A stretch of DNA of 64,000 nucleotides from Allosalinactinospora lopnorensis (lineage in GTDB: Bacteria > Actinomycetota > Actinomycetes > Streptosporangiales > Streptosporangiaceae): positions 62,001-126,000 of the forward strand of contig NZ_LAJC01000003.1 of the NCBI RefSeq assembly GCF_000981225.1, given 5' to 3'. How positions within the stretch are numbered: the stretch's first letter is position 1; each line of letters starts with the position of its first letter. The notes beneath the pieces were generated by a model that was not told the DNA's origin, made no database searches, and saw only the letters and a list, made by a program, of their open reading frames with translations. A program made the translations under genes and the position numbers. Positions 32,883 to 54,700 of this stretch are shown here, one piece after another.

Positions 32883-34978
32883 TCACTTCGTCGGCAGGAA
32901 CGGGCTGGGGGCCCCGCTGTGGGAGAGGTAGAGGGCGTCACGCGCCCGGGTGCAGGAGACGAATAGCAGGTTGCGTTCGCGCTGGAGATTGTGGTCGTGT
33001 TCGACGGGGTCCTCCGTGTGGTCGGCGACCCGGGACCCATTGGGAACGAGGTCGGCGTCGACGCCCACCACCGCCGCGCACCGGAACTCTAGTCCTTTCA
33101 TCGCGTGCATGGTGCCCACGCGCACCCCGGGGCCCGTGGCGAGTGCGCCGCAGTCGATGGCGGCTTCCGCCAGCCGCTCGGTCACCGCTTCGGTGACCTT
33201 GCGGGTGCGTCCGGCGATTCCGATGGAATCGGCTTCGACACCGTGGGTCAGCCACTCCTCGACCTGCTCCACCAAGGCGTCGAGCTCGGCGGCGCGGTCG
33301 GTGAAGCCACGCACGGTGGGGCGGCGGCCGTGCAGGGGTGAACTGTAGGTGTCGAGGCTGTCCTCCAGGTCGTCCAGGCCCGTGGCGGGCGCCGTCCCGA
33401 GAATCTGGACCGCCCAGGACAGGATCTCCTGGGTGCTGCGGTAGCTGACGGACAGTCTGCGGCTGCGTCCGCGCACGTTGATGCCGAGCGAAGCCAGCGA
33501 GACCCGGTGGTCGTAGATGCGCTGGTGCGGGTCGCCCGCGATGAAAAGGTCGTCGGCGCCCTCGGCGGCCAGCGCACGGATCAGCCGCCACTTCGCCGGG
33601 TTCAGGTCCTGGGCCTCGTCGACGACCACGTGAGCATAGGGGCGGTCGCCGGTGCGCTCCAGGATGTCGGCGGCCTCCGCCGCCACCTGGGTGAACGTCC
33701 ACTGGTTGGCCTGGACCATCTGCTCGGTGGCGGCCAGCACGACGCGCCAGACGGCGCGCCTCTGATCAGTGCTGAGCCGGCTGCCACGCCCGCGCCGCCG
33801 GGCCTGCAGGTAGGCCCGTTCGGTGCGCAGCCCCTGGGCGAGAATCACCTGCTCCCATTCGGCCAGCAGGAACGCGCCGGAGAACCCACTGTCCGCGCCG
33901 GCCTCGTCCCAGAGCCGTTCGAGGTCCCGGGAACGCGGGAATCCCGGGGCTGTTCCGCGCTCCGTCGTGACCACCTCGTGGGCGACCTTGTCAAGGTTGC
34001 GCACGTCCACGCGCTCCCGCTGCGCCGGTTCGGAGATGAGCAGCTCGACCTGGGAGCGCAGCGCCGCGTCAAGGGTCCTGGTGAATGTCGTCAGCAGGAT
34101 CTGCGGCGGACCGGAGTCGTAGCGGGAGGCAAGGTGCGCCACCCGGTGCACCGCGGTGACCGTCTTCCCGGTGCCCGCGCCGCCGGTGACCATCGCGGGG
34201 CCGTTGAAGCCGGACCGGTAGGCGATCTTGCGCTGCTGCGGGTGCAGGAACACCCGCCACAGGTCGAACGCCGCCTCCAGCATGTCCCGCAGGTTCTCCG
34301 GTCCCTCCACGAACACGGCCTGCCCGGGGGTGCGCCGGATCGCCGTGGTGAGGTCGTCGGGGTCGATCCGGTCGGGGGCGACCTCCTCCACCAGGTTCTT
34401 GGCGACCTCGGCCCACGCCTCCTCCGGCGTCATCCCTGACGCAAGGGCCACCAGGCGTCGTACTGGCCGCCCGGAAGCATCTTCGCCATCGCCTCCAGGT
34501 GTGCCTCCGACGTCAGCAGCCGCACGATCGGCAACGAGTCCGCGTCGACGCCCAGCCGCACCAGGTCGGTATCGGAAACCCGGTTGAACAGCCGCGCGGA
34601 CTCGGCTCCGGCGAGTTCCTCCAGGGCGGGGGTGAGGCTTTCCAACGCTGTCTCGTCCCGGACCTCCAGCACCCCCAGTGCCTGGTTGACCGAGAACCGC
34701 TTACTGCGGATGTAGGCGTAGGCCTCATCGTGGGGCAGAACAGTGACCAGCAGGTAGGTATCCCCGGATTCAGGGGCGAGCACCACGCCCCGGTAGCCCA
34801 GCGTGATCCGCAGCGTGCACGCCCGCGGATCACGCGCGTCGGTGACCTTCTCCAGGTGACCGCCGGCGTAGTACACCTCCGCGAACTTCTGGAGCGCCTC
34901 GTCGACAGCCTTCTGCACCCGTTTGTCCAGCTTCGCGTACCGGCTCAGGAAGTCCTTGTCGATCGCGAGCTGAGGCAT
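32883..34978 (-). CDS. UvrD-like helicase with N-terminal RelE-like segment, frameshifted
   Basis: One added G near 34451 joins two frames into 698 residues. Residues 1-100 start MPQLAIDKDFLSRYAKL and contain GYRGVVLAPESGDTYLLVTV and LPHDEAYAYI, which resemble RelE/ParE-like toxin folds. The helicase follows: Walker A GGAGTGKTVT near 250, Ia LLTTFTRTLDAALRSQ, Walker B VVVDEAQDL, motif III LFIAGDPHQRIYDHR, motif IV SYRSTQEILSW, and motif VI NLLFVSCTRARDALYLS. Superfamily 1 helicases of this type move 3' to 5'. GAGAGGA lies upstream of the ATG at 34978. It follows mcrBC in the same direction, and a role in the defence cluster is likely but inferred. Confidence 0.88.
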
Positions 34979-35188
34979 GGGGGTCCTCTCTGCGTGGGGG
35001 CTGAAGGTTCTCGCCCCCCGTTCAATGCGGCTGTTGACGGGGACGCGGTGGTAGTCCACCAGTGCGTGCGTCGTATTGCTGTCGAAACGTCGAAATCGCC
35101 CGTCCCACGGTAGGGCGCCGAGCGCGACGTTCGGTTCCGCGGACACCGCGGGGTTCGGTCCGCCTTTTCGGTTCGAGACCCGGCGCGG

Positions 35189-36412
35189 CTATGCCCGCTG
35201 CACTGCGCCGTCGCGCATGCGCTCGGCGATGTGCGCGATCTGCGCCAGCACCTCCCCGGGCGCGCGGTCCAGGTCGAGGACGTGCTGGTGGACGGCGATC
35301 CGAGTCCCGCCGTTGATGTGGTGTGCGCGTGGCCCGGCCTCGGGTCCGGACGCGTAGATCAGGTGCCCCTCCGCTAGGTCCAGCGCTGTGCAGTAGGCCA
35401 GCATCTGGTAGACGTCGGAGTCGGTGCCGCCGGTTCTGGCGGTTTTGTACTTGGCGTCGGCGACGGCCGCCGGCATCGGTCGGCCGTCGGGGCTCTGCCG
35501 GTAGTAGAGCAGGTCGGGGCGCAACGGCATGGCTCGTGCGCGGTCGAGGTGGTGCCGGGTGTCCTGGGAGGCGCAGTGGCCGCCGTAGGGGTGCAGGGCA
35601 TCGGTCAGCGCCCGGGTCAGGAAGTCCTCGTAGACCTGCCACATGCGCAGCACCAGCCCCTCAGCGCGTAGGGTGCGCGCTTGGTCCAGCTCATAGGAAC
35701 CGCCGCGCAGCACGAGTTCGGCCAGACCCAGCGGTGCCCGGTAGCGCGCGTTGAGGCGGCTCGCCCGCCATTCGGGCAGCGGCTGACCGGCGACCAGAGC
35801 GGTGACGCCGTCCAACCGGTGCACCACCCGGTGCAGCAGGGCCCGGGCGGTGCCGTCCAGTCGGGGCAGGCGCAGCAGCCGGCGGGCCGCTGCGAGCAGG
35901 ATTCGGTTCTCCGGTGTATCGGGGGTGTAGTCGTCGTAGACGACCTCGACCGGCAGCAGGGCGCCGAATCGCCGCCGGATCTGCTCGGATTCGCGAAGGC
36001 GGCCGCGGACCACCGGCAGCGCCTCCTCAACGGTGCGGTAGCCCAGCAGTACTCCACGGGTGAGCGCGCGGTCGGCCATGCGGGCGAACGCCGAGGCGAT
36101 CGCCGGCAGCAGATCGGTGTGCTCGTGGGAGTCGACGGGGTGGCGGTGCCAGTGGAGTCCGTGCTGGGCGTAGCCGAGCAGGAAGAACAGTCGCCGGATC
36201 GGGAGTTTCGGTGCGACTCGCAGCTCGACGGAGGCGTCCTTGTGGCCCACGTGGACGGCGCCGACCAGGCCCCTGTCGGCGGTGAGCGTCCAGGAGCCTC
36301 CCGAGTCGGGCCGCATCGACACCAGTTCGCACGCCGCCAGGGCGGCGGCCTGCCCGGGGCTCACCCGCACACCGGGCAGGGGAACGTACTCGACCAGTTC
36401 GATCCGGGTCAT
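35189..36412 (-). CDS. mcrC: McrC-family 5-methylcytosine restriction component
   Basis: A 407-residue McrC protein. The N-terminal half (AVHVGHKDASVELRVAPKLP, RRLFFLLGYA) is the McrBC-interacting beta-rich part; the C-terminal PD-(D/E)xK nuclease is seen as MPLRPDLLYY, VADAKYKTAR and DVYQMLAYCTAL. McrC supplies DNA cleavage to the McrB GTP-driven motor. Its start overlaps the mcrB stop (ATGA). Catalytic Asp, Asp and Lys are all present. Confidence 0.93.
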   Translation of the reverse strand: MTRIELVEYVPLPGVRVSPGQAAALAACELVSMRPDSGGSWTLTADRGLVGAVHVGHKDASVELRVAPKLPIRRLFFLLGYAQHGLHWHRHPVDSHEHTDLLPAIASAFARMADRALTRGVLLGYRTVEEALPVVRGRLRESEQIRRRFGALLPVEVVYDDYTPDTPENRILLAAARRLLRLPRLDGTARALLHRVVHRLDGVTALVAGQPLPEWRASRLNARYRAPLGLAELVLRGGSYELDQARTLRAEGLVLRMWQVYEDFLTRALTDALHPYGGHCASQDTRHHLDRARAMPLRPDLLYYRQSPDGRPMPAAVADAKYKTARTGGTDSDVYQMLAYCTALDLAEGHLIYASGPEAGPRAHHINGGTRIAVHQHVLDLDRAPGEVLAQIAHIAERMRDGAVQRA

Positions 36413-38517
36413 GCCTGCGGCGCCGTTCCGCCGTCCAGGCCGAGTTGCGCGCGCAGCGCCGCCAGGCCGTACAGCTCCTCGACGTCGACCCCGTCACCGT
36501 AGTGGTGCTCCTCCAGGAGAGGGAGGATCTGGTGGCGCCACACCCGTTCGAGGCCGCGCGGATGGGAGTGGACGGCCTTGCGCATCAGGTAGGAGGGGCC
36601 GATGCGGAAGTCGCGGTCGTCGATCCGGTTGTTGAGCTCGGTCAGCAGTCGTGCCGCGTCGTCGGGTAGACCGTGCCGGGCCAGCCACCGTCCCAGGACG
36701 GCGTCTGCGGGTCCGATGCTGGGGTGCAGTTCCAGGAACCAGAAGCGGCGGCGCATGGCCGCGTCGACGAGCGCGATGGAACGGTCGGCCGTGTTCATCG
36801 TCGCGAGGATGACGATGTTCTTCGGCAGGGTGAAGCCGAGACCGTTGTCGGAGCCGTAGAGCAGGTTCACCGACTTACCGCGGTACTCCAGTAGGAAGTA
36901 CAGCTCGCCGAATATCTTGGCCAGGTTGCCGCGGTTGATCTCGTCGATGATCAGCACGAAGGGCTCGCCGGGGTGTTTGCGGGCGGCATCGGCGAGTATA
37001 CGCAGCGGCCCGTGGGTGAGTTCGAAGGTCGCGCCCTGCCCGTCGGAGACCGGCCGGGGCCGGTAGCCCTCGAAGAAGTCCTCGTAGGAGTAGGCGGGGT
37101 GGAACTGGACGAGCTGTACGTTCTCCGGTTTGCCGCCGGTGAGGTGCCTGGCCAGTTCTTGGGCGACGTAGGTCTTTCCGGTGCCGGGCGGGCCGTAGAA
37201 GATCAGCTGCGGCTGGTCCCGCAGCAGGTCGATGCATTCCTGCACCCAGTCCTGGTCGAACAGGAGTGCCTCGGCGAGCTCGGCGTCGGCGTCAGGCAGG
37301 GAGAAGGCGCGTTCGGTGACCGGCTGCTCGGGTTCCACGCCCAGCAGTTTTTCCAGGTCGCCGACGAACTCGGTGAGGTCGATGACGACGGCGTCGGGGT
37401 TGGTCAACCGGTTCGACGCCTCCTCGGGGAGGTCGTCGGTGTAGTCGAGCGGATCGTCGGTCTTGTGCCAGGTCACCGCCCTCTGCAGGTTGGCCCGACC
37501 GCCGGTGCTGGCGGTGTAGTCGGGCGGCCCGTCGATGACGCCGATGTAGATCGAGGCTCCGTCGTTGGTCAGCACGATGTCGCCGGGGCGCATCCGTGTG
37601 AGGAAGGCGTGGTATTCCCGGGTGAGTTTGTCGCGTTCGGCGGCGCCGGCGTGGGCGTATGCGTCGTCGACCGCGGCGGCGATTTCTTCTCGGGCGCTTC
37701 CGCGGGGAACCTCCCGGAGCCGGGAGGCCGGCAGCGAACACACCCCCTGCGGCAGCCACAGGGACCGGACCAGGTTCGTGCCCTGGACGCTGGACCCGCG
37801 CACCAGCCAGGCGCGGCGCTTGGTCGTGTCCTCGGTGCCGGCTTCGGCGGTCGTGTCGGTCAGGTGCTGGGCCAGGTCGGCTTTGGTGAGGCGCCGATGG
37901 GGAACCGCGCGGCCGTTGGGGCCGGTGACACCGTCGGTTTCGAGCAGGCTGTCGGCGAGGGCGCGTTCGTCCGAGGTGGGGTGCGCGCTTTCGGGCGGCG
38001 CCCCGTTCTCGTTGAGCAGGCGGTGCCAGCCTTCGGGGCGGATGGCGTACAACCGTTGTGCCAGGAGTTCGGCGGGAACCTCCACCTGGGAGGCGAGTTC
38101 GTCCGCTTGCACCCAGGTCCCCTCCGGCAGTGCGGAGAGGAGACTCTCGGCCAGCTCGAATCTGCTCCGTTTCCCATACCAGGTCTGGTAGAGCCGGTGA
38201 AGTTCGCTGGACCAGGAGTCCGGGTCGGGGTGGCTGTGGAGGGACGCCCGCCCGGCGCCGGTGACGCACCAGGTGCCGTTGCCGTCCTTGCGCAGCCAGC
38301 CGACGTTGACCATCCCGGAGGAACGCCATTGCAGGAAGGTGAGCGGGCCACTCGTGGCACGTCCCTGAGCGGCCCAGTCGTCCTCCACGGAGGGGTGGCG
38401 CTCTTTGACGCGTTCCCACAGGGCGTCCTTGTGCATCCCTTCCCCCTCGGGCAGGTCCGCCAGGACCTCGACCGCTGTGCGGGCAATGGCGTTGTCGATC
38501 CGCTGGGTGGGGGGCAT
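36409..38517 (-). CDS. mcrB: McrB-like AAA+ GTPase with EVE-like N-terminal domain
   Basis: 702 residues from ATG 38517, which has AGGAGAG upstream. Residues 1-100 form a winged-helix-like domain (MHKDALWERVKERHP, TFLQWRSSGMVNVGWL). The middle (about 215-330) has AWLVRGSSVQGTNLV and DIVLTNDGASIYIGVIDG, resembling an EVE/PUA-like modified-base reader. The AAA+ domain has Walker A GPPGTGKT, Walker B FVLIIDEINRGNLAKIFGE and the McrB-specific ATMNTADRSI. McrB-type proteins sense modified cytosine and drive McrC. The EVE-like domain would give modification recognition, by inference. Confidence 0.92.
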   Translation of the reverse strand: MPPTQRIDNAIARTAVEVLADLPEGEGMHKDALWERVKERHPSVEDDWAAQGRATSGPLTFLQWRSSGMVNVGWLRKDGNGTWCVTGAGRASLHSHPDPDSWSSELHRLYQTWYGKRSRFELAESLLSALPEGTWVQADELASQVEVPAELLAQRLYAIRPEGWHRLLNENGAPPESAHPTSDERALADSLLETDGVTGPNGRAVPHRRLTKADLAQHLTDTTAEAGTEDTTKRRAWLVRGSSVQGTNLVRSLWLPQGVCSLPASRLREVPRGSAREEIAAAVDDAYAHAGAAERDKLTREYHAFLTRMRPGDIVLTNDGASIYIGVIDGPPDYTASTGGRANLQRAVTWHKTDDPLDYTDDLPEEASNRLTNPDAVVIDLTEFVGDLEKLLGVEPEQPVTERAFSLPDADAELAEALLFDQDWVQECIDLLRDQPQLIFYGPPGTGKTYVAQELARHLTGGKPENVQLVQFHPAYSYEDFFEGYRPRPVSDGQGATFELTHGPLRILADAARKHPGEPFVLIIDEINRGNLAKIFGELYFLLEYRGKSVNLLYGSDNGLGFTLPKNIVILATMNTADRSIALVDAAMRRRFWFLELHPSIGPADAVLGRWLARHGLPDDAARLLTELNNRIDDRDFRIGPSYLMRKAVHSHPRGLERVWRHQILPLLEEHHYGDGVDVEELYGLAALRAQLGLDGGTAPQA

Positions 38518-38655
38518 CGGGACTCTCCTAGGACAGCCGGAGGCGGGCGTAAAAAACGAGCGGGGAACCCCATGGTGCCCGAGAGGGACGACAGCTATGT
38601 CACGGAAGCGGAGAAGGCGCACGGCGGTCGTGCGATCCTCGGCTCGCACGGTGTT

Positions 38656-40329
38656 TCACCGTAAGCGTCGGGAGTTGATCTTTGCCGCGAGGCGCCGCAA
38701 GGTTCCGGCATCGGCCGTTGCGTCCGAGGACCCTTCGCCGGTTTCCCGCGCAGCACCCGCTGAGGGAGGCGCCGGGGTGCGGCCCTCACGGCGCAGCTGG
38801 CGGCGGATCTCCTCGCTGCGGGCACGCAGGGTTTCGTCCATGCCGGAGGAGGAATCCGGTGCCGCGGAGTCGGGGGCGGGCTCCTCGTGCGGGCCGCGGT
38901 CCGGGGCTTCGGCCCGGGTGGAAGCGTTGGGGTGTCCGGTGGAGGAGGCATTCCGCTTCTTCTGTCCGGGGGAGGGCTGCTGCGCGGTCTTCGGTGTCTT
39001 GGCCAGGGCCCTGTCCAGCTTTTTCCGGTGTGCTGCGGTGATTCCGGCGTCCGTCTCTTTGCGCAGCGCGAGCGCCTGCTCTCGGCAGCGGGCGATCCGT
39101 GCCCGGTCGCCGTTCAGAACGGCCATCTTCAGTTCGTGGACGGCGATGTCTACGCGCTCGCCCACGGGCACGGTCCCGGTTCGGAGCCGGGAGGCGGTCA
39201 TGTGGCCGTCCCCGCCCACTCTCCGGGCGATGGAATCCAGGTCGGAGAAGATCCTGCGCCGCTGTTCGGGAGTGAGTCCGTTTCCGGGTTCGGTGATGAG
39301 CGCCCGCAGTTCACGCCTGAGCTGCTGCGCGTGTTTGGACTGTCCCGCCTTTGTGGCCGCGTGCCACTCCTTCAGCAGGCGTTCGGCCACCATGCGCGGT
39401 GCGGACTGGTCCTTGACCTTCTGCAGGTCGATCAGCTTGGCGCGGAACTCCTTCTGCGCGTCGCCTGGGAGGTTCGACATCTGCCGGGCGATGGCGTCGA
39501 TGGCGCGGCCCGCCGCCTGCGAATCCGCGTTGTCCAGCGCGTCGCGGACGAGGCGGCGCAGCCGTTCCGGGGTGTCCTCCGCTGGGGGCTTGGGCTTGGC
39601 TGGGGTCAGGCGCAGCAGCCGCCGCTCCTTCAGGACCGGCGTGCGGATCCCCTCGCGGGTGAAGGAACATTCGGACAGGTCGTTCCAGCGGACTCGCAGG
39701 TCCCCGGTCATCGTGCCGACCTCGAATCCGCGTCCCAGATCCTCGTCCTTGAACCGGATGCGCAGTGCGTAGCCGTTGCGGTCGATCAGCTCGCCCGTGA
39801 GAGGCGGGTTTTCCTTGACGAGCCAGTCGAGCCGGTTGATCTCTCCGGCGTGCAGGAGCCGCTTCAGGTACGCGTCCAGGTTCCGGGAGAACTCGACGCA
39901 GATCGGGGGCAGGCCATCGGCCTCGCCGAGGAGCACCCGGACGCAGGTGCCGCCCGCGGCGAACTCCCCTTCGTAACGGGCGGGGCGCTCGTCCCAGCCC
40001 TGCTGTTGGAGCCAGCGGTTAACTTTCCTGCTCGCGTAGAGGTGGTCGGCGCTGTCGACTCCGCCGTGGCGGCGGGTGCACCCGTTGGAGGAGGGGTGGT
40101 GGGCGAAGTGACAGACCTTCTCCCGGTAGATCTTGTCGCTGAGCCGGCCGCCGCATCCGCCGAGCAGCGTTCCGCACCAGAATGTCCGGTCTTTGTTGCG
40201 TAGGCGGAACGACTGGGCGCCGGACTCGTCCATCGGCAGGCTGACGGGCACCTCGGATCGGGGACGGCCCACGACGGCGGTCTGGACCAGGCGGTGGTCG
40301 TCCTCCGGATGTGTTTCCCGACGCGCCAT
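38656..40329 (-). CDS. CoiA-like zinc-finger/nuclease-domain protein
   Basis: A 557-residue protein. Residues about 45-130 hold a cysteine/histidine cluster (FWCGTLLGGCGGRLSDKI, KVCHFAHHPSSNGC) and SADHLYASRKVNRWLQQQGW, matching the CoiA family start. CoiA proteins contain a predicted nuclease domain and act on incoming DNA in competent bacteria. A strand-rich core (GEADGLPPICVEFSRNLDAY) and a long helical, charged, Pro/Ser-rich tail follow; the tail has no homologue that I recognise. It lies between the DUF6292 fusion and mcrB, all same-direction, so a defence role is more likely than competence. Confidence is high for the family resemblance, low for role. Confidence 0.65.
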   Translation of the reverse strand: MARRETHPEDDHRLVQTAVVGRPRSEVPVSLPMDESGAQSFRLRNKDRTFWCGTLLGGCGGRLSDKIYREKVCHFAHHPSSNGCTRRHGGVDSADHLYASRKVNRWLQQQGWDERPARYEGEFAAGGTCVRVLLGEADGLPPICVEFSRNLDAYLKRLLHAGEINRLDWLVKENPPLTGELIDRNGYALRIRFKDEDLGRGFEVGTMTGDLRVRWNDLSECSFTREGIRTPVLKERRLLRLTPAKPKPPAEDTPERLRRLVRDALDNADSQAAGRAIDAIARQMSNLPGDAQKEFRAKLIDLQKVKDQSAPRMVAERLLKEWHAATKAGQSKHAQQLRRELRALITEPGNGLTPEQRRRIFSDLDSIARRVGGDGHMTASRLRTGTVPVGERVDIAVHELKMAVLNGDRARIARCREQALALRKETDAGITAAHRKKLDRALAKTPKTAQQPSPGQKKRNASSTGHPNASTRAEAPDRGPHEEPAPDSAAPDSSSGMDETLRARSEEIRRQLRREGRTPAPPSAGAARETGEGSSDATADAGTLRRLAAKINSRRLR

Positions 40330-40500: not shown

Positions 40501-42336
40501 CTATCGGAGGGCGGAGTAGCGTGTTTCTCCGCTGCTGAGGTTCGTCAGCGGCTGGCCATCCAAATGCACTCCGAATACCACCGAGCGGTCCTGCTCAAGG
40601 GATAGCCGCAGTTCGGCGGCCAGTTTGTCCGTCCCAGTGCCTCGGGTACCAAGCCATCCGTTCGACAGCAGCGAGGCGAACTCGGTGTTGGTCAGGTACC
40701 GCTGCGCCGTGGACTCCCCCACTCTGGCACCGCCGTATGGGCCCCGTGCACCCGGGCTCGCGTGCACGGTCTCGAAATGCTCGCGGGTGAGGTACATGCC
40801 CGGGACGAGCTCGCTGGAGTTGGGTATCCGGGTCTCGGGCCTGCAGAGTTTGACGAAACACGGGGTGTCCACGAGCCGCAGGTCGGGGTGCCCGGAAGCG
40901 CTGTCCCGGTAGTTCCTGTCCGCCTTGCGCATGCGGTCCAGCTGGCCCAGGAAGTGTTCGTCTACGCGGCTGACAAGGTAGCCGCCCTGTGTTTCCTCCA
41001 TCTTCTTGTACTGGATCAGTACGAAGCTGCCCTGGTGGGGGTTGTAGTAGACGAGGTCCACGCCCAGGTTGGTCTCCACACCGGTCCGGTCCACGTTGGC
41101 CACGAGAAGCGTCCGAGTCTTGTAGCGGTTGCGGAACAGGCCCCACGCCAGGTTCTCGGTGTGTTCCCGGAACCAGCCCAAGAACGTGGACTGGTCGTGA
41201 GCGATGTGCCAGCTTTCGTGTGGGGCGAGATCCCGACCGGAGAGCCCGTGGACGAAGTTCGCCCCGTTCGCGGATGGGCGCCAGTCCTTCAGGATCTCCC
41301 GGTCGATGTCGAAGGCCTCGAACAGCACCCCGACCGCGTCCCGCTCGTACGGGCGCACCGACCGGTCCGCACTCGTGGGAGGCTCGACGTCGAGCAGGCG
41401 AGTCAGGTGGTCTATGTGCTCAGCGAGATCCGAAGAGGCCGCCGCGAGCGCTTTCAGGAGCTCGCGGCCCCGTACCTCGGGGAGCGTGCCGTTTCTGTCC
41501 AGCCCGTCGCGAAACTGTCCGAGCCGCTCCTTGAGGTCTGCCACCGAGATGCGCCTCGCCGCTGGGAGGAACTCGCACACATCAAGCCGTTTCTCGAAAT
41601 CCCCAGCCCTGCCGCTGGTCTCCGCGATCCCCAGACCACCGATGGTGCTCCGGGGCGGGCTGGAACTCGTGTCCAGGAAGACACAGAGGTGACGCCCGCG
41701 CTTCCAGGTTCCGCGTGGGATGGAGAACTCACCTCCGGTGCATGACCGGCTTTCCATCAGATGGTCCTGCATGATCTCGGTGAGGCTGGTGACAGCGACC
41801 GTGACCTCTTTGGGGGGCGGTGACTGCTTGGCTACCGACGCCCAAACCGCCGCGGACAGGTGGTCGAGGCCGGGTTCTTGGTTTCCGTAGGCTGCCAGCA
41901 TGGTGTCGACCTCGGCCGAGGGAAGCGGCTCGTCCGGGGTTTCCCAGAAGAGGTCATCCAGGGTGGTCTGAGCAGGTTCCTGGGTGGGTCGGAACGTCTT
42001 ATGGCTGGCCTTCGCCCATGCCGCGACCATGTGCGGCTCGGGGACCACGCCGGGATAGCGGCGCAGTACCGTGTCTTGCCCGGTATGGCTGGTCACGGTG
42101 AATCGCCAGCCCTGCGTCTCGTCCCATCGCAGCCGAGCCGATGGTTGCTGCTGTGAATTTTCTTCGCGGCCGGGTGAACGGAGACTGATTTCCGCGTGGC
42201 GCGATGGAACCCAGCCGAACGACGGCGGTTCGACCTGGAGGCCGTGGCGGGCCGCCGCAGCATAAACCGCCTGGATATAGGGGGTGTGGTCACTGGGTTC
42301 GCTGGGGGAACCCGTGTTTTCACCGTACTGCCGCAT
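40501..42336 (-). CDS. DUF6292-like domain fused to a PD-(D/E)xK-like nuclease region
   Basis: 611 residues from the ATG at 42336, preceded by GGAAGG. Residues about 10-80 (YIQAVYAAAARHGLQVEPPS, ARLRWDETQGWRFTV) match the DUF6292 pattern of actinobacterial small proteins. The middle (about 140-340) is unrecognised. Near residue 440 the sequence NLGVDLVYYNPHQG, followed by SFVLIQYKKMEE, has the D-(about 13)-Q-x-K spacing of a PD-(D/E)xK-like site. No helicase or methylase motif is present. It lies at the head of a leftward run including CoiA-like, mcrB, mcrC and the UvrD-like gene. Nuclease activity is inferred from this spacing only. Confidence 0.55.
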   Translation of the reverse strand: MRQYGENTGSPSEPSDHTPYIQAVYAAAARHGLQVEPPSFGWVPSRHAEISLRSPGREENSQQQPSARLRWDETQGWRFTVTSHTGQDTVLRRYPGVVPEPHMVAAWAKASHKTFRPTQEPAQTTLDDLFWETPDEPLPSAEVDTMLAAYGNQEPGLDHLSAAVWASVAKQSPPPKEVTVAVTSLTEIMQDHLMESRSCTGGEFSIPRGTWKRGRHLCVFLDTSSSPPRSTIGGLGIAETSGRAGDFEKRLDVCEFLPAARRISVADLKERLGQFRDGLDRNGTLPEVRGRELLKALAAASSDLAEHIDHLTRLLDVEPPTSADRSVRPYERDAVGVLFEAFDIDREILKDWRPSANGANFVHGLSGRDLAPHESWHIAHDQSTFLGWFREHTENLAWGLFRNRYKTRTLLVANVDRTGVETNLGVDLVYYNPHQGSFVLIQYKKMEETQGGYLVSRVDEHFLGQLDRMRKADRNYRDSASGHPDLRLVDTPCFVKLCRPETRIPNSSELVPGMYLTREHFETVHASPGARGPYGGARVGESTAQRYLTNTEFASLLSNGWLGTRGTGTDKLAAELRLSLEQDRSVVFGVHLDGQPLTNLSSGETRYSALR

Positions 42337-42577
42337 GCCTGCCTTCCGATGCTCCACGCCGTGGAGTATTGTCCGCCGCCGCTACGTGAGAGGAAATTCC
42401 AGCATGGCGCCGTGCGTGCGGCAAAAGCGGAAGGGGCACGGGCGGTGCGGCCCAGGGGCACGCCGAACCAGGGTACGACGGCCCCCTCCAGTACGGGATT
42501 TTGTGGTCGGCGAGCGGGGCGACGCCGGAGCGTGGGAAGCTCGCCCGGACCGGGTGGGGATGGTGGAGTGGGGCGGC

Positions 42578-43060
42578 TCAGCCCCGGAACCGCTGGGTCG
42601 GGAAGGAGAACGCGGGGGACTCGAAGACGGCCCACACGGTGAGGCCGCCGTCGTCGTTGGGGTCGTAGCCCCAGTCGTCGGCCACCTCGGCGACCAGGCG
42701 CAGGCCCCGCCACCCCACGGCGAGCGGATCCGGGGGCATGATCCGGGGAACGCGCTCGCGGCGAGCGGTGGTGTCGGTGGACCTGGGGCCCTGGTCGGCC
42801 ACCGATACCACGACCAGGCCGGTGACCAAGGCGCTGACACTGACCCCCAGCGTGCCGCCCTCGCCGCTGCGGGTGTGCCGGCAGGCGTTGCCGAACAGTT
42901 CGGAGACGACGAGTTCGGCGTCGTCCACGATCCGCGTGTGGTCCGCGAGCGCCGCCCGCACCACCCTCCGCGCGACCGGGCAGAACGCGGCGTCACCGGG
43001 AAGCTCGTAGAACCCCGACACGGCGGTGAGCCGCCCGAGACCGGATCCGGCCCCCATCAC
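42578..43060 (-). CDS. HATPase_c (RsbW-like anti-sigma/serine-kinase-type) protein
   Basis: 160 residues. The N-box is AELVVSELFGNACRHT, the G1 box VVSVADQGP, and the G2-like segment GWRGLRLVAEVADDWGYD. These are GHKL ATP-binding motifs of RsbW/SpoIIAB-like proteins; small forms frequently sit next to XRE-DUF397 loci in Streptomyces (abaA/whiJ-like). The start is GTG 43060 or ATG 43057, overlapping the stop of the gene upstream in a GTGA/ATGG arrangement. Role in regulation is inferred. Confidence 0.85.
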   Translation of the reverse strand: MMGAGSGLGRLTAVSGFYELPGDAAFCPVARRVVRAALADHTRIVDDAELVVSELFGNACRHTRSGEGGTLGVSVSALVTGLVVVSVADQGPRSTDTTARRERVPRIMPPDPLAVGWRGLRLVAEVADDWGYDPNDDGGLTVWAVFESPAFSFPTQRFRG

Positions 43061-43407
43061 GCCACCCCCTTCAGCCCAGCGCGCCGCTCAGCGACCAGGT
43101 TGGACCGCCGCCGCCCCGACCACTGCGGCCCGGCGAGCCGATCCGCGGCCACCGCCACCCGCGAAGCGGGAACGGCCGCCGTCCTGCCCCAGACGAACCA
43201 CCACCCGCCGGTGATCCCCCGCACCAGGACCACCGCGATGACGCGGCCCCGACAGCGCACGTAGAGGACCGGGTGGGCAGTGCTTGCCAGCGCGAGGAGA
43301 GCGGTCCCACCCCGCGACCGGACAGCAGCGGCGAGAGAGGTGAGGAACTGAAACCTCTCATCACCGCGGGTTGGTGGTTCACCGCGATGAGTGATGTGAG
43401 TGGGCAT
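43057..43407 (-). CDS. small basic protein of a whiJ-like locus
   Basis: 116 residues from the ATG at 43407, with GGGAGG seven bases upstream. It is Arg-rich with two hydrophobic patches (GTALLALASTAHPVLYVR, VIAVVLVRGITGGWWFVWG). Not recognised as a named family; similar proteins are commonly encoded beside HATPase genes in such loci. It starts the leftward pair with the HATPase gene and diverges from the XRE gene. Confidence 0.6.
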   Translation of the reverse strand: MPTHITHRGEPPTRGDERFQFLTSLAAAVRSRGGTALLALASTAHPVLYVRCRGRVIAVVLVRGITGGWWFVWGRTAAVPASRVAVAADRLAGPQWSGRRRSNLVAERRAGLKGVA

Positions 43408-43472
43408 GAGGAAACCTCCCACGATTCCGTCCAGGATTTGTGAGCTGGGCTGTGTTGCCAGACTCATATGAT

Positions 43473-43518
43473 GAGTGGGATAGTTCCACTCGTCAAGCTA
43501 GTATTGGAATTATTCCAA
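43473..43518. promoter_or_regulatory. paired palindromes GGRATWRTTCC between divergent genes
   Basis: TTGGAATTATTCCAA (43504-43518) is a perfect 15-bp palindrome, and GAGTGG-GATAGTT-CCACTC (43473-43491) is a second palindrome. Both contain an 11-mer of the form GGRATWRTTCC, with centres 29 bp apart. They lie between the XRE regulator and the divergent small-protein/HATPase pair, so they are the likely XRE operators. Confidence 0.6.
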
Positions 43519-43547
43519 AAAAATTGGGGAGGTCTACACTGCGACGC

Positions 43548-44402
43548 ATGCAACGCAGCCACAGCCCGAGTGTCCGCCGTCGTAGGCTGTCCGCTCAGCT
43601 ACGCCGGTACCGCGAGCAAAGCGGTAAGACGACTGGTCAGGTAGCTAAGGAACTGGGCTGGGCGCAGACAAAGGTCTCCAAGATCGAGACCGGCTTCAAG
43701 AGGACGGTCGGTCCTGCGGACCTTGACGCTCTCCTGGACTTCTATGACGTGAAGGACAGCGAGATCCGTGCCTCTTTGCATGAGTGCGCCCGTCTTGCCA
43801 AGCAGCGAGGATGGTGGGCGAAGTACCGCGATGTCTTTCAGGGGGCGCTGCCCGACTTCGAGACCGAGGCTTCAGCGATTCGCGCGTACGAGTCCCAGGT
43901 CATACCAGGTCTGCTCCAGACGCCGGAGTACGCCGAAGAGATCTTTCGGGCCAACCAAGTGCGGTCTGAAAAGGAGATCGCCCAACGAGTCACCGCACGC
44001 ATGGAGCGGCAGCACATTCTCAACAGGGTGGACCCACCTGCCTATCGGGCAGTGATCGACGAAGCCGCGCTACGGCGCCTGGTGGGATCGGCGGAAGTCA
44101 TGAGTACGCAGCTACGCCATGTCACTCACATGGCCGCTCGGCACAACGTCGATATCCAGGTGTTGCCGTTTTCCGAGGGGGCGCACACAGCTACCGTTGG
44201 CAGCTTTGTCATCATGGACTTTTCGAACCCGCTTGATCAGAGCATCGCCTACGTGGACACCCCGACATCCAGTCTCTATATGGAGGAAGACTTTGAACTG
44301 GAGCGATTCAACTCCATGTTTGCCGGGGCTCAGGGTGCCGCGTTGAGCCCCGCTCGATCTCTAAAGTTCATCAACGAGGTCATCGACTTCTTAGAAGAGT
44401 GA
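43548..44402 (+). CDS. XRE-family regulator with DUF5753
   Basis: 284 residues. The N-terminal HTH reads LSAQLRRYREQSGKTTGQVA and LGWAQTKVSKIETG; DUF5753 follows (AIRAYESQVIPGLLQTPEYA, RQHILNRVDPPAYRAVIDEA, NVDIQVLPFSEG). Such WhiJ-like regulators pair with a DUF397 partner, here overlapping by 4 bp. In-frame codons extend to 43440, but the ATG at 43548 begins the conserved part; no ribosome site is well placed, so a leaderless or extended start is possible. Probably binds the paired palindromes upstream. Confidence 0.9.
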   Translation: MQRSHSPSVRRRRLSAQLRRYREQSGKTTGQVAKELGWAQTKVSKIETGFKRTVGPADLDALLDFYDVKDSEIRASLHECARLAKQRGWWAKYRDVFQGALPDFETEASAIRAYESQVIPGLLQTPEYAEEIFRANQVRSEKEIAQRVTARMERQHILNRVDPPAYRAVIDEAALRRLVGSAEVMSTQLRHVTHMAARHNVDIQVLPFSEGAHTATVGSFVIMDFSNPLDQSIAYVDTPTSSLYMEEDFELERFNSMFAGAQGAALSPARSLKFINEVIDFLEE

Positions 44403-44599
44403 GAACAGTGTTTGATAAGCGAGTGTGGCGGAAGAGTAGCTACAGCGGGGATTCTGATAACTGTGTCGAGGTCGCGGACCTCAGCAACGCCACTGCTGTC
44501 CGCGACTCCAAGTCTCCCGGTGCCGCCGCACTAACCTTCCCCGCTGCTGAGTGGCGGGCGTTCGTCGCCGACCTCAGGCGGGAGGAGTTCGAGAACTGA
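44399..44599 (+). CDS. DUF397 protein
   Basis: 66 residues, starting at GTG in a GTGA overlap with the XRE gene. Core motifs [28 protein letters not shown] and [13 protein letters not shown] define DUF397. It is the partner of the XRE-DUF5753 protein. Its 3' end overlaps the end of the convergent methyltransferase gene by 26 bp. Confidence 0.9.
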
Positions 44600-47500
44600 C
44601 CGGATGGCGAGGGCCCTCACCGGGAAGCGGATCCAGGACGGTCCGGTACGGCTCCCCGGTTTCGACGGCCTTCGCCATCGCGTCGTAGATCTCCAGAATC
44701 GTGTCCTTGGTGAGGTAGGCGCCGTGCGTCTGGAGGTCCTTCTTCTTCACGATCGGGAACGTGTCCATGATGTGCTCCACGTCGTCCCGCTCGATCCCGT
44801 ACAGGTGGAAGAACGCCGCGTCCAACTCGCAGCGCAGCAGGAACCGGCGCTCCTCATCCCACACGAAGGGCGGGCCCGAATCGCCGAGATCCCGAGCGAA
44901 GGACTCCATGTCCCACACGGTGTAAGTGAGTTCGAGGACGCGGGGAGTGAGCATGATAGATAAGTTTTACTTATTTCCCATGAGGTGGGGGACTGAAAAA
45001 CTCCAGGTTTCGGAAAAGGGAGCTGCCTTACATGACTGAAAGCCAAGTGGAGGCCAGCAACTTTCTGGCGTGCCGTATAATCAAAGACAAAGGAATTAAA
45101 TCCTGCGAGCAATATATGACGGTAGGTGCAGTCGAAGAGTAGGAAAGTGTGGCCTACTGCGGATCTAGGTATGGCGGCTGCGATCACCGTTCGTTCATTG
45201 GTGGCGCTGGTGACGTCGCAGAAACCAGTGAGCCACTGCCCAAAGTTGCTCGCCACTTCTTCTTCAGGTACCCATGAAAGAGAGTAGGCTGGGCGGTGAG
45301 CGTCTCGATGCTCGTGCGTATCTATGTACTGTGGCTGATTCTGTCGATTTCGCGCTGTTTTGCTACGCACAATATCCGCTGCTCGATGGTCGTACATTCC
45401 GACCATCTTCGCCTCGTACAGCGGAAGCATGCGCTTCTCGCCCTTGACGAAGACGTTGCCCTCTAGTCGCCAACCTCCGGCTTCCAGGTCCTCGCGGGTG
45501 TGAAAGAGGTGGGAGTCGTCGGACATGTGGAACATGCGTCCCAAGTCAAGGTCCCACGGATTTCCGTCCCGCTTTCCGCGCTCCAAAAGAATTGTCGCGT
45601 TTTCGTAGATGCGTAGCGTGATATTCGCGTCTTGGCGGGAGCGGAAGATTGGGCAGGTTCCAGTGTTCGGGTTGAGCTTGAGGATTTCTTCCGCGCTGAG
45701 CCTGAACCGTTTGTCGACGTTGCTGAGTTCACCGGTGTCGTGCAGGAAGAATGCGAAGTCGGCCCGCTCGATGGTGATCCCGCGCCCGGCGATGGTCAGC
45801 AGGGTGAACTTCATCCTGCTGTCGACGTCCGCGAAGACCTTTTTTCGGTTCTCGAAGTCGTAGACTGTCGCCAGTACCCGCCGCTGCACGATGTCCTTGA
45901 AGAACCGTTGCGTGGTCGAGTCGGTGACGATTCCGGTCGGGACGATGATGCCGAGTCTGCTGCGCGGGTGCAGTAGCTCTTTGCCGTGCTCGGTGAAGAC
46001 AGCGTAGGTGTTTACTGTCCCAACACCGGTGAGCGGGTAGCGTCCTGATTCGCGCAGGAACCGGGCTTCGCCGTCGCTGCGGAGCTTGGCCTCGTGGAAC
46101 TCGCGCAGCAGGAACGCGCCCTCCTCGCTGTCGCCCAGGGTCTTGATGAGTGCTTCGCGTTTTGCCTTGTTCGGGGCATTGGCGATCTCCGGATCCCGCG
46201 AGGCGAAGAACTCCTTCTCCTGGAGTTTCACCCGCTCCCACGGCGGGTTCCCCAGTACGCAGGTGAATCCGCCTTGCCATCCGGTTTCCGGGTTGTAGTC
46301 GCCCCGCTCGTCGTCGATGCCGGGGAAGACTTCGGGGAACTCCAGGTGCCAGTGGAAGAACTGGTAGCGGCGGTCCAGGTCGGTGAGCTGTTTCTCCTGC
46401 TCTTTCGACAGTGAGCCCGTGCCGTCCCGGAGTCCCCACAGGGTGGCGTTGGTGATGGCGGCGGGGGCGTCGGGGCGCTTGGGCCACACGAATGCGGCGC
46501 ACCAGGCGTCGGCCGCTCGCTCTTTCTGTCGTTTCTCCGGGGACTGGTCGAGTTCGCGCAGCCGCCGGGCCTGCTCGCGGATGCCGGCCAGGCCGGGCCT
46601 GGTGGTCTGGTTGACCTTGCGGGCGGCTTCGGCGAGCTTCACGTTGCTGGTGAAGCCTTCACCGGCCGTGAGCAGGCTGGCCTGCCCGGTCTCGCGTTCC
46701 TTCCGGTTCTGCTTCCTCAGTACCCCGACGAACTTCTGGTCGTCCCCCTCCAGCGCTTTGAATGCCCCGTCCGGAAGTCCGTCCTTCAGCAGCTTCGGCG
46801 TGGTCCCCAGCAGGGCGTTGCCGACCTTGATGTGCGGGTCCAGGAACGCCAGGGGCTTTCCGGGCTCCAGGGAGGCCAGCCACAGCGACACTTTGGTCAG
46901 CTCCACGGCCAGCGGGTTCAGATCCACGCCGTAGACGCAGTTGCGCACCACGTCGGGCATGGCCTTGGTGATCGCGTCCGGGGTGGGTTCCTCGTCCCCG
47001 GCCTCCAGCACCGCGTAGGCCCGCGCGATCCGCCGGGCCGCCGCCACCAGGAAGTGCCCCGAACCGCAGGCCGGGTCGCACACGGTGATCTTGAGCAGGT
47101 CGGCCGGGACCCCGCTCTTGGCGTACTCCCGGATCACCGGGTCCAGGGCGCTGTCCAGCAGCGTCTCCACCAGGGGACTCGGCGTGTAGTAGGAGCCGGT
47201 GGTCTTGCGGTCGTTACCAGCCGCCTCCTTCAGCTCGAACACCTTGTTGGTGGAATCCGGGTAGGGAATGAGCTCCAGCAGGGACTCGTAGATGGAGCCC
47301 AGCTCCTCGGCGTCCAGGTGCTGGTAGTCCACCCGCTGCCAGCGGCCGCCGTCGTCCTTCACCCGGGTGAGGTGGCGCACCGCCGCGAGCAGCCGCCGGT
47401 TGGCCAGTGTCACCCGCGGGTCGCGCAGCAGCTCCGGCCGGGCCGTCCCCGCGTCACCGTCCTCGCCGCTCTCCTCCAGCGCCCCGGCGGTGAAGTACAG

Positions 47501-48741
47501 CCCGCCCAGCGGCGGCAGCGCCAGCTCCGGGCGGCCCTCGTCTGCGCCCAGCGCGTCCAGCACGATGACCAGGGTGCGCCACAGGTCATCGTGCCGGTCA
47601 CCCAACCGTTCCGACGCGATCCGGCGCAGCCGATCGGTGGAGAAGTAGGTGCGGTAGCGGACCTCCGCGGCCCGCTGTTTCCGCTTCGCCTCTTCGATCT
47701 GCTCGGGCGTCGCCGTTTTCCTGGTCTCGTCGTCCATGAACGCCTTGGGGTCGAGCAGCGCCCCCTTGTCCTCGGCGACGAACAGGAACAGCACCTGGTA
47801 GGCCAGCCGCAGCAGCTCGTTGCGCAGGTCGTAGCGGGACACCTCGCCCGTGCGCAGTTTCTCCCGCAGATGCGGATTGTCCTCCAGGAACCCGGTGCCC
47901 AGCTCCTCCAGGGCCGCTTTCAGGCCGTCGCGGAGCTTGTCGCGGAACCGGACGCCGGTCCGGTCGCCCTCGGTGCGCCACTTCTCCAGCCAGCAGTCCG
48001 CCGCACTCGGCGTGACCGATGCGGCGCCCTCCTCCTCGGCGCCCTCCGGCGTGTGCGGCTCGAACCGGGAGGCGTGGGCCAGCGCGAACAGCAGCACGAA
48101 GTCGGAGTACAGCTCGCCCTCGAAGATCGACTCCAGGTCGAACTCGATGAACGCCGCCTCCGACAGCGACGCCGCGTCCCTCAGGATGCGCAGCTTCTGG
48201 CCGTTGCTGACGATGCCCCACAGGTGGTGGTCGCTGGCGTTGAGGAACTCCTGCAGCATCGACTGCGGGGCGCGGTCACCGCCGGAGCCGCCGTTGCCAC
48301 CGCGTTTCTTGTCCAGGTCGCGCCCCCAGGCCACCAGGTGTATGGGCACGCTGCCCCACACGTGGCTGACGGGGAACGCGCGGCCGCCGGCGTCCAGGTT
48401 GGCACGCTGGTGCTGGAGCCGGCCGAAACTGAGAGCGTCGAACAGTGGCAGCAGCCAGCGGTTGCGGGTCAGGGAGACGGCGGACTCGTCCGGCCCCGCA
48501 TTCGCCAGGCGCTTTTGAAACGCCTGGTAGGCGCCCAGCAGTTCGTCCCAACGCCGGCTGGCGGCCTCCCCCAAACGGCGTCCGGAAGTCATGCCGTAGT
48601 CCTCGGGCCGCAGGCCCTTCAGGTCGGGATCGCCCGCACCGATCCGGCCGATCAGGTCGGCGGTCAGCAGCGACCCCACCACGCGGACAGCCGAGTACCG
48701 CTGGGTGCTCACGGTGCTCGCCGTACTCGTACCTGCCGTGT

Positions 48742-48745
<4 letters not shown>
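44574..48745 (-). CDS. Eco57I/PglX-like N6-adenine DNA methyltransferase (DrmMI-like), frameshifted
   Basis: Adding one G near 44952 (TGG CTC) gives 1390 residues. The methylase core has motif [18 protein letters not shown] near residue 560 and the catalytic NPPW in [13 protein letters not shown] near 830. A large N-terminal helical region ([35 protein letters not shown]) precedes it, and a target-recognition and C-terminal region follows, ending [15 protein letters not shown] and [20 protein letters not shown], which is normal for this family. In DISARM and BREX such enzymes methylate host DNA. Its ATG overlaps the DrmD-like stop. A role in self-DNA marking is inferred from family. Confidence 0.85.
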
Positions 48746-51599
<2,854 letters not shown>

Positions 51600-51719
51600 A
51601 GGGCGCCACCTCCCGAAGGATGGGTCACGGAGTCTACCTCGCGGTCGTTGATCAGGGGTGTGGAACAACCCTAAGGACTTCCTCCGACACGAGTGCGGAG
51701 AACGGGGAAGGCACGGTCG

Positions 51720-54700
51720 TCACCGGCCGGGGCCGAAAACGCTGGGGTTGGCGGCGACCACACTGCGCCAGTCGGCGTCGTGGGAAAAGCGCACCACCAG
51801 CCAGCCGAGGTCCTCCAGGCGGTATTCGGCCTGGAGGTCGCGCATGGCCTGGTGGGCGGTGTCGTGGTGCGGGCCGTCGACGAACACGGCCACGTCGGAG
51901 CCGTTCAGCCGGTACACGAAGTCGGGCCGGGCCAGCGCTTCGGCGACGGTCACCTGGGCGTCGTCGGGCACCCGGTACCCGCCGTCGCGCAGCATCGCCA
52001 GGAACTCCCGCTCCAGGCCGCTCTCGGCGGTCCGGTCCAGGTCGGCGAGCTGCTCCTCGGCGCTCGAGGCGTCGCCGCCGGCGGATTCGGTGCGGCCGCC
52101 GGCCAGGGCCAGCAGCAGCTCGACCGCCGAGAGCCGGTCGATCAGGGTGTGGTCCTTCTGGTTGGTGTAGGAGAGCAGGCAGTCGTAGCAGCCGCGTTCG
52201 CAGCGTTCGGTGGTGCCTTCGGCGTGTCCGAGGTCGGTGCCGTCGGCCTCGGCGTGGATGATGCTCAGCGCTTCCTCGGCGACCCGGGCCAGGGTGGCGC
52301 TCTCGTCGCGGAGGCGGCGCAGCACCCCCGCTCCGCCTTCGGCGCTCTCGATGAAGAGCATGCGGCCGCGGCCCTGCGGGTCGGGCAGGTCCTCGCTGGT
52401 CAGCTCGGCGTCCTCCAGTTGGAACACGGCCTCCATGCCGCGCTCCAGCGCATAGCGCAGCGTGACCGCCTGCTCGTTGCTCAGGGGCGTGGACCAGCGC
52501 AGCAGGAGGATGTTCTTGCTGTCCTCGACGTAGGGGATGACCTTGGCGACCTTCTTCGCGTCGGAGAACGACCCCAGCCCCTCCTCGTCGGGGACGTTCT
52601 CGGTAGCCTTGGCCTCGCTCAGCCAGCGGCCGGTGACCGGGTCGATCCAGAAGCCGACGTCGTTGCGGTCGCGGCGGCGGCGACGGCCCATGTTGATGAC
52701 GCGCACGGTGGCGGTGTCGCCGTAGACCAGCTCGGCGAGGTCGGACCCGCCGGTGTCCTTGACCGTGGCGGCCGAGCGGCCCGAGCGGGCGCCGTGGTCG
52801 GAGAACCGGAATGCGGTGCGCAGCTCGAACCCGGCGCGGCGGCGTTCCTCCTCATCGGAGGAAATGCGCTGGCGGCGCACGGTGAACACCGTCTCCAGCC
52901 GCATCAGGTCCGACATGGTGGAACTCAGCGGTTGCCCGCACTCCTGGCACTCGTCGGTTCCGGCCTGGCGGTCGTGCCAGTAGCCGCACGCACCGCAGAT
53001 ACGCGCCTCGGCGGTGCTGAGGTCGCCGCCGTCGGTGGGCACCTGGACGCTGGTGACCTCGTAGCGCTGGCCCTCGTGGTAGATCAGCGCACCGGGGCCG
53101 AACTCCGAGACCGCGATGAAGCGCGGGCGCTGCAGGTAGGTGCCGCGTTCCCGGCGGGCTGGGATGTAGGCGGCCAGCGGCAGGCGCGGGAAGGAGTAGC
53201 CGGGCAGGAACCCCTCGGAGGCGAAGTAGCGGTAGGTGTAGAAGTCGCTGAACTGGTGGTTCTTGTCCTGGTTGAGCAGGAGCTGCTGCTGGGTCTCGGC
53301 GTGGGTGCGCCGCGCCTTGGCCTCGTTGCGCACGCGCGGGCTGTTGGAGGTGTCGATGACGTGCCGGTTCTGGGTGCGCTGCTCGGTGAGCGCGGCCTCG
53401 TAGAGCCCGCGCCACCGATCGCAGACGCGGTCGAGGCGCCCGGGCGCGGCCCGGACGACGTCGGCCACCCATTCGTCGTACCACCACGGGCTGTCCTCGA
53501 CGCCGGTGTCGGCCAGCACCGCCCGGGCCCGGTCGACGGCGCGGCGCTGGGCGCCGGGGTCGTGGATGGTGCTGGTGATGTGCGGGCGCAGCCGCAGTGA
53601 CGGCAGGGTGTCGGGTTCGGCCGAGACGTCCAGGACCTCGCCCATGCCGCTGTTGAGGTGGGCGCCGGTCTCGGCCAGCCAGATCGCCTGGACGTGGGAG
53701 CGCACCAGGTCCTCGTTGGCCAGGTCGAGGCGGGGCGGCTCGACGCTGCCGGCCACCATGCGGTCCGACCGGCGGAAGTAGTACTGGTCGTGGGCGCTGC
53801 CGGTGGAGCAGTAGGTGGTGACCAGGGCGGGCTGGCCGCTGCGGCCGGCGCGACCCGAACGCTGGGCGTAGTTGGCCGGGGTGGGCGGGACGTTGCGCAT
53901 GCCCACGGCGTTCAGTGAGGAGATGTCCACGCCGAGCTCCATCGTCGGCGAGCAGAACATCAGCTTCAGCGTGCCCTCACGGAACGCCTGCTCGCGTTCC
54001 CGCCGGTCGTCGGCGGGCACCTGGGCGGTGTGCTCCTTGGCCTGCAGGCGGCGGAACCGGTCCGAGCCGGCGCGGTAGAGGTCGCGGAAGTAGGCGTTGA
54101 CGTGGGCTCCGGTCTCCTCGTCGACGACCTTGCGCAGCGGGTCGGAAACGCCGGTCTCCCCGGTTCCGGCCCGCCAGATCAGGGCCGAGGACTTCAGCCG
54201 GTAGCCGGTCGCCGCGCGCTTCTCCTCGATCGGCGTGAGCAGCCCCAGCCCGGCCAGTACGGCCACCAGGTCGTCGATGACCAGTTGGGCGTCGTCGAGG
54301 GAGACGGCGCCCGCGACAGCGTGGGAGAACCGGCCGGGGTGGCGCAGGTAGCGGCCGAACGCGCCGCGGGCGGTGATGTGCTTATCGGTGCGCGCCCTTC
54401 CCGCACGGCCCGGTCCGGTGTAGACGGTGCCGGGCTGCACCCGGTCCTCGCCCGGGGACAGCGCCCAGGGATCGCGCAGGGACTGGTTGGACTGGCGCTC
54501 CAGGCGCTCATAGCCGACCTGGGTGAACACCTCGACGTCGACGGCCAGAGCCCGGCGGAACTCGTCCAGCAGGATCTTGGCCAGGTGGTGGCGTAGTTCG
54601 GGCGGCGCGTCCCGCAGCAGGGCCGAGACGTCCTGATCGGTGCCGGGGCGCTTGTGCCAGCACTCCTCGTCTTCGGAGATCTCGGTCAGGTCAGCGTAGT

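Follow-up and report, generated by a model that had tools for sequence, protein, structure and literature searches.

A DUF6292 fusion protein of Allosalinactinospora lopnorensis with predicted PUA-like and PD-(D/E)XK-like domains, a candidate modification-dependent restriction endonuclease

The fusion gene and its neighbors

The window, the whole 64,000-nucleotide stretch of A. lopnorensis DNA that was analyzed, was found to carry on its minus strand a gene (40501..42336) for a DUF6292/PUA-like/PD-(D/E)XK fusion protein of 611 amino acids. The frame of this gene remains open to a GTG at 42357 (40501-42357, 618 codons from the GTG), and the ATG at 42336 is codon 8 of this longer frame. A GGAAGG ribosome-binding site precedes the ATG, and thus the ATG is considered the likelier start. 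Residues of the fusion protein are nevertheless numbered from the GTG at 42357 throughout, not from the ATG at 42336.

Downstream of the fusion gene, after a gap of 171 bp and on the same strand, lies a gene run that starts with a CoiA-like protein of 557 amino acids without a Pfam family (38656..40329), the first gene of an McrBC operon. The label CoiA-like is based on a Cys/HFAH motif spotted by eye, and no CoiA match was detected in Pfam. This gene is followed by those for an McrB-like AAA/GTPase (36409..38649, minus strand; AAA_5, E 1.6e-19; McrB model, E 1.5e-41, below the cut-off of that model) and an McrC nuclease (35189..36412, minus strand; Pfam McrBC, E 2.6e-51), and the run ends with a UvrD/GajB-like helicase (32883..34451, minus strand; UvrD-helicase, E 2.7e-25; GajB, E 4.7e-31). 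Also downstream of McrC, a family-less protein of 238 amino acids overlaps the GajB-like UvrD helicase (32883-35146, minus strand); together with the helicase, McrBC and the CoiA-like protein it possibly makes up a five-gene McrBC operon. The first-pass annotation had placed the fusion gene directly upstream of the CoiA-like gene and McrBC, as is indeed the case. A search of 100 related genomes otherwise placed the nuclease family and the CoiA-like gene in different genomes, and the adjacency is a local pairing. The 171-bp gap and the lack of co-occurrence elsewhere led us to abandon the notion that the fusion gene is a constant component of the McrBC operon.

On its other side the fusion gene is flanked by an Eco57I-type methyltransferase and a DrmD/DpdE-like helicase. 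These belong to a DISARM-like run (44747-56039, minus strand) that matches no named system exactly and that includes the Eco57I-type methyltransferase (DrmMI-like, E 9e-53), an SNF2 helicase (PADLOC DpdE, E 7e-232; NCBIfam DrmD, below cut-off) and a helicase of 1439 amino acids resembling DruE/DrmA. A cassette of an HATPase, an HTH-DUF5753 regulator and, often, a DUF397 protein adjoins the family gene in the window (42578-44600) and in L033, L045, L046, L081 and L086, six actinobacterial loci in all. This cassette may regulate the family gene, or its proximity may just reflect how common such cassettes are.

Domain architecture of the fusion protein

The first-pass annotation described a large, uncharacterized protein in which a DUF6292-like start is joined to a nuclease-like part. 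Both parts were recovered, the first by Pfam and the second as a predicted PD-(D/E)XK-type core, while a third domain between them (PUA/EVE-like, residues 182-310) had been overlooked. The protein is thus best described as DUF6292 followed by a reader-like domain and a nuclease, the folds of the latter two being predicted. Beyond DUF6292, no significant match was detected in Pfam, NCBIfam or PADLOC.

The DUF6292 domain (residues 27-116; 42010..42279, minus strand) matched Pfam PF19809 with an E of 4e-10 and 40.3 bits, above the gathering cut-off of 27.1. In a survey of 60 related genomes, 25 DUF6292 matches were found, of which 24 fell in frames of 139-380 codons (mostly <260) and one, the window gene, in a long frame (626 codons), in agreement with the earlier statement that DUF6292 normally occurs as a small stand-alone protein. 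The DUF6292 region also aligned with structures of CapZ and Mediator subunits (Z about 8, rmsd 3.5-5), but no significance was attached to these alignments. No mention of DUF6292 was found in the literature searched.

The middle domain (residues 182-310; 41428..41814, minus strand) is assigned to the PUA superfamily on structure alone, and is a predicted EVE/ASCH/YTH-like reader of modified bases. In the full-length AlphaFold model (mean pLDDT 77), confidence across this domain was mostly 77-97. When residues 182-310 were compared to known structures by VIA-align, the EVE, ASCH and YTH structures gave overall Z scores of 7-9.7, with 2eve at 9.7 (rmsd 2.6, 115 aligned), Leishmania 2ar1 at 9.6, VcaM4I 6yex at 9.4, THYN1 5j3e at 9.0, ASCH at 8.5 and YTH at 7.8. 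The order of strands and helices in the model at residues 187-271 fits the PUA core, a five-stranded mixed beta-sheet with a helix after strand 1; the extra strand that the EVE subfamily has beside strand 1 had no clear counterpart, as no clear sixth strand was seen in the DSSP string. Neither EVE, ASCH nor YTH of Pfam matched any of 61 full-length members of the family to which the protein belongs (see below). Likewise, hhalign detected no link of the middle domain to the EVE and ASCH sets; this null result carries no information, since EVE failed to find ASCH in the control. Conservation of the domain across the alignment of 61 members was weak, and thus a base pocket common to the whole family stays putative.

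The nuclease domain and a family-specific C-terminal extension (residues 381-598; 40564..41217, minus strand) were modeled from residues 326-606 (model mf17d2774c5bb, pTM 0.85), with a PD-(D/E)XK-like core at residues 381-505 (40843-41217, minus strand). The D-(about 13)-QYKK signature pointed out in the first-pass annotation is present as GVDLVYYNPHQGSFVLIQYKK, in which D434 (41056..41058) is separated by 14 residues from Q449-Y-K451 of the catalytic-type motif Q449-Y450-K451-K452 (41002..41013). D434 is a predicted metal ligand; E428 (41074..41076) is a predicted active-site acid, as are E381 and D388 (41194..41217) of the first helix of the core, which corresponds to residues 56-69 of the model. 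When the 61 full-length members were aligned, E381, D388, E428, G432, D434, L435, Y437, Q449, Y450 and K451 were identical in 61/61, as were K503, G520, F560 and G570. The D...QYK motif is not a chance occurrence, as it is identical in all 61 aligned members and these come from many phyla. In the model, D434 and Q449/K451 are on neighboring strands, and E381 and D388 are on the helix.

The ten best PDB matches of the modeled nuclease part by VIA-align were all PD-(D/E)XK nucleases, namely Hjc, RecU and SPARDA nucleases, with PvuII, DpnI, HinP1I and EcoRV lower in the list; Z scores of the ten were 6.6 to 4.6, a range where unrelated folds can also match. Because these values are modest, the PD-(D/E)XK assignment draws on Z, on the invariant residues and on where these residues lie in the model. 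Taken together, these data point with moderate confidence to a PD-(D/E)XK-like fold with an alpha-beta-beta-beta-alpha-beta core at the QYKK region, in which the invariant residues occupy the elements expected of them. The active-site pattern of such enzymes (a conserved acid, D, and QxK on adjacent strands) is apparent in sequence and model, and cleavage itself is predicted. Other searches returned little: by Foldseek, neither the full-length nor the nuclease model matched the PDB at E <= 0.001, no match to viral structure models was found at this threshold, and a profile search of PDB sequences gave chance matches only. YhcG_C (PF06250), a PDDEXK family, showed a likeness in the form of weak Pfam matches in 4/61 members (best E 0.01) and was absent from the window protein. 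In Mrr-type endonucleases, as in this family, the PD-(D/E)XK motif takes the form D-x(n)-Q-x-K; the family differs from them in its reader domain, and none of the 61 members matched Mrr_cat at E <= 1.

Two Holliday junction resolvases, Hjc (Z 6.6, rmsd 3.5, 113 aligned) and RecU (Z 6.5), were closest in fold to the nuclease part, as would be seen were the protein a branched-DNA or repair nuclease that travels with mobile elements and is no restriction enzyme. We consider this very unlikely, as the two matches reflect the generic PD-(D/E)XK core, and the reader-like domain, patchy spread and defense context described below do not fit a repair enzyme.

Distribution and genomic context of the family

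Apart from its DUF6292 domain, the fusion protein belongs over its full length to an unnamed family of proteins of about 450 amino acids. The fusion is real, and its nuclease half is not a one-off; it belongs to this widespread family, which is normally without DUF6292. Two distant homologues were found in a first search of 100 related genomes, and when one genome of each species was searched with a profile, 71 further loci were recovered in about ten phyla, among them Actinomycetota, Pseudomonadota, Bacteroidota, Cyanobacteriota, Planctomycetota, Acidobacteriota, Chloroflexota, Gemmatimonadota, Myxococcota, Armatimonadota and others. Within the order of A. lopnorensis, a search with a small profile detected the family in 16 of 347 genomes. 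By tblastn, the family was also found, annotated as hypothetical protein, on alpha- and gammaproteobacterial plasmids and on Kocuria plasmids. A single-protein search of genome contigs found no relative, whereas an alignment-based search did; no relatives were detected in viral contigs by alignment search or in phage records by tblastn. Since most relatives are about 450 amino acids and match the profile across nearly its whole length, the middle domain goes together with the C-terminal one.

Fusion to DUF6292 was detected in the window gene and in just three other members, all from Nocardiopsis: L045, in which the domain scored 32.4 bits and thus above the Pfam cut-off, and L046 and L047, in which it was below threshold and recognized by alignment. 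These four members form one clade with a support of 100/100, and one change on the tree accounts for them. To judge from the sequences, the simplest account is that a lineage related to Nocardiopsis acquired the fusion on one occasion and has retained it since.

Near-identical family genes (branches <0.04) were observed in different orders of Alphaproteobacteria (L091, L094, L096, L097 and L105), most with DUF6119 directly downstream, which argues for recent transfer among these orders. In L038 (7624-10797), a frame of 468 amino acids, probably a transposase, splits the family gene just past the QYK region, and broken copies of the gene were also found at L070, L081, L111 and L115.

Neighborhoods were compared for 79 non-duplicate loci, to a distance of four genes, by a clustering that recognizes shared neighbors. 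HsdM, with HsdR and/or HsdS, was within four genes in 10 of the 79 loci (about six lineages by tree). Based on the 51 HsdM found in 100 whole genomes of the phylum, this corresponds to 13% of family loci compared to about 0.15% expected for a random gene, a rough figure as the loci span other phyla. DISARM-type genes were within four genes in eight loci, with DrmA and DrmB above NCBI cut-offs in L045 and L050, DrmB in L047, and weaker calls for DrmD and the methyltransferase. GajA of Gabija was immediately downstream in L023 and L024. In seven loci the family gene was followed by DUF6119, the two overlapping by 4 bp, and in an eighth DUF6119 was nearby. For 59 of the 79 loci no R-M, DISARM, Gabija or McrBC gene was recognized within four genes, a count that single-copy defense genes would escape because the clustering detects shared neighbors only. 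In answer to the concern that homologues might lie mainly outside of defense islands, restriction and defense genes were found to adjoin the family far above the rough background.

Some arrangements were close. In L055, L060 and L073 the order was hsdM-hsdS-hsdR-family gene, with a gap to hsdR of 18-42 bp, and in L097 and L105 the family gene was inside the hsd operon (hsdM-x-hsdS-family gene-DUF6119-hsdR), overlapping its neighbors by 1-4 bp. The protein between hsdM and hsdS in the latter two loci (L097:7393-8331 and L105:4645-5583) is of 312 amino acids and had no NCBIfam match. PrrC is a nuclease that is held in check within a type I R-M locus and freed when a phage inhibits R-M. The position of the family gene between hsdS and hsdR, or directly after hsdR, would suit a similar second-line effector, in which the nuclease is restrained by the neighboring R-M or DISARM machinery until a phage inhibits the R-M complex, and the PUA-like domain serves to dock or sense. 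We regard this as rather unlikely: the family gene is also found beside DISARM, Gabija or McrBC without R-M genes nearby, and thus does not need Hsd proteins. A partner methyltransferase was absent from many loci, and other loci sit in type I R-M operons.

A predicted modification-dependent nuclease

The observations made here concern how the sequence is conserved, how the domains are ordered, how the family is distributed and which genes surround it. From these we infer that the fusion protein is, on balance, probably a modification-dependent (type IV-like) restriction endonuclease, for which the folds are model-based and DNA cutting and a role in phage defense are proposed. This reading is favored because modification-dependent restriction enzymes such as VcaM4I and the predicted EVE-PD-(D/E)XK enzymes are built in this way, with a reader joined to a nuclease. 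Counted in its favor were the invariant E/D/QxK set, both predicted folds, the VcaM4I-like layout, the R-M/DISARM/Gabija context, the patchy spread that includes plasmids, and the near-identical alphaproteobacterial copies. The PUA/EVE-like domain would bind a modified base in incoming DNA, probably via base flipping, and the PD-(D/E)XK domain (E428/E381, D434 and Q449-x-K451; metal-dependent) would then cut the bound DNA. Positioned beside R-M, DISARM or McrBC, such a nuclease could catch phages whose modified DNA evades those systems. Many neighbors are adenine methyltransferases, and thus the reader should ignore the methyl marks of its own host. DUF6292 would most likely be a protein-interaction or regulatory module.

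In VcaM4I, the pocket of the EVE domain takes a flipped 5mC or 5hmC and an HNH domain cuts (PMC7897488). VcaM4I, like other EVE-HNH modification-dependent endonucleases, resembles the fusion protein in having its PUA-superfamily reader on the N-terminal side, a helical connection and the nuclease on the C-terminal side (PMC7897488), in line with the Z of 6yex given above. By contrast, the nuclease of the fusion protein is PD-(D/E)XK-like instead of HNH, its C-terminal extension is longer, DUF6292 is extra, and no sequence match between the two was detectable. Bell, Wolf and Koonin (2020, PMC7641849) predicted EVE-PD-(D/E)XK fusions to be type IV enzymes and found EVE proteins to be R-M-associated; the two-domain logic and the R-M association are common to their set and the family described here, although 0/61 members match Pfam EVE and the comparison to their set was by description only.

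Reading of RNA is frequent among PUA and YTH domains, and RNA is the predicted target of CoCoNuT McrBC systems that carry such domains (PMC11090510). The family could on these grounds be an RNA-directed nuclease whose PUA/YTH-like domain reads modified RNA, with the infected cell killed or silenced. This appears quite improbable, as the R-M systems with which the family co-occurs target DNA, and the PUA-nuclease fusions for which there are data act on DNA (PMC7897488).

For the modification-dependent reading, the kind of enzyme is known in outline, and the family and its DUF6292 fusion appear undescribed as far as we looked, with the Bell 2020 set compared by description. Pfam and NCBIfam provide no name for the family, and both libraries missed its reader as well as its nuclease. 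If the reading is correct, a family now labeled hypothetical protein would provide candidate modified-base-specific DNA cutters across many phyla, would help explain bacterial responses to phages with modified DNA, and may offer tools for mapping base modifications; the fusion would also tie DUF6292 to defense. A wider proposal, which we advance tentatively and hold to be less than an even prospect, is that the cross-phylum PUA-PD-(D/E)XK family supplements type I R-M, DISARM and McrBC as a portable accessory that destroys modified phage DNA that has escaped them, and that DUF6292 was fused to it in one actinobacterial lineage to control or anchor the nuclease. Were this true, it would give a first clue to the function of DUF6292, a domain widespread as a small protein.
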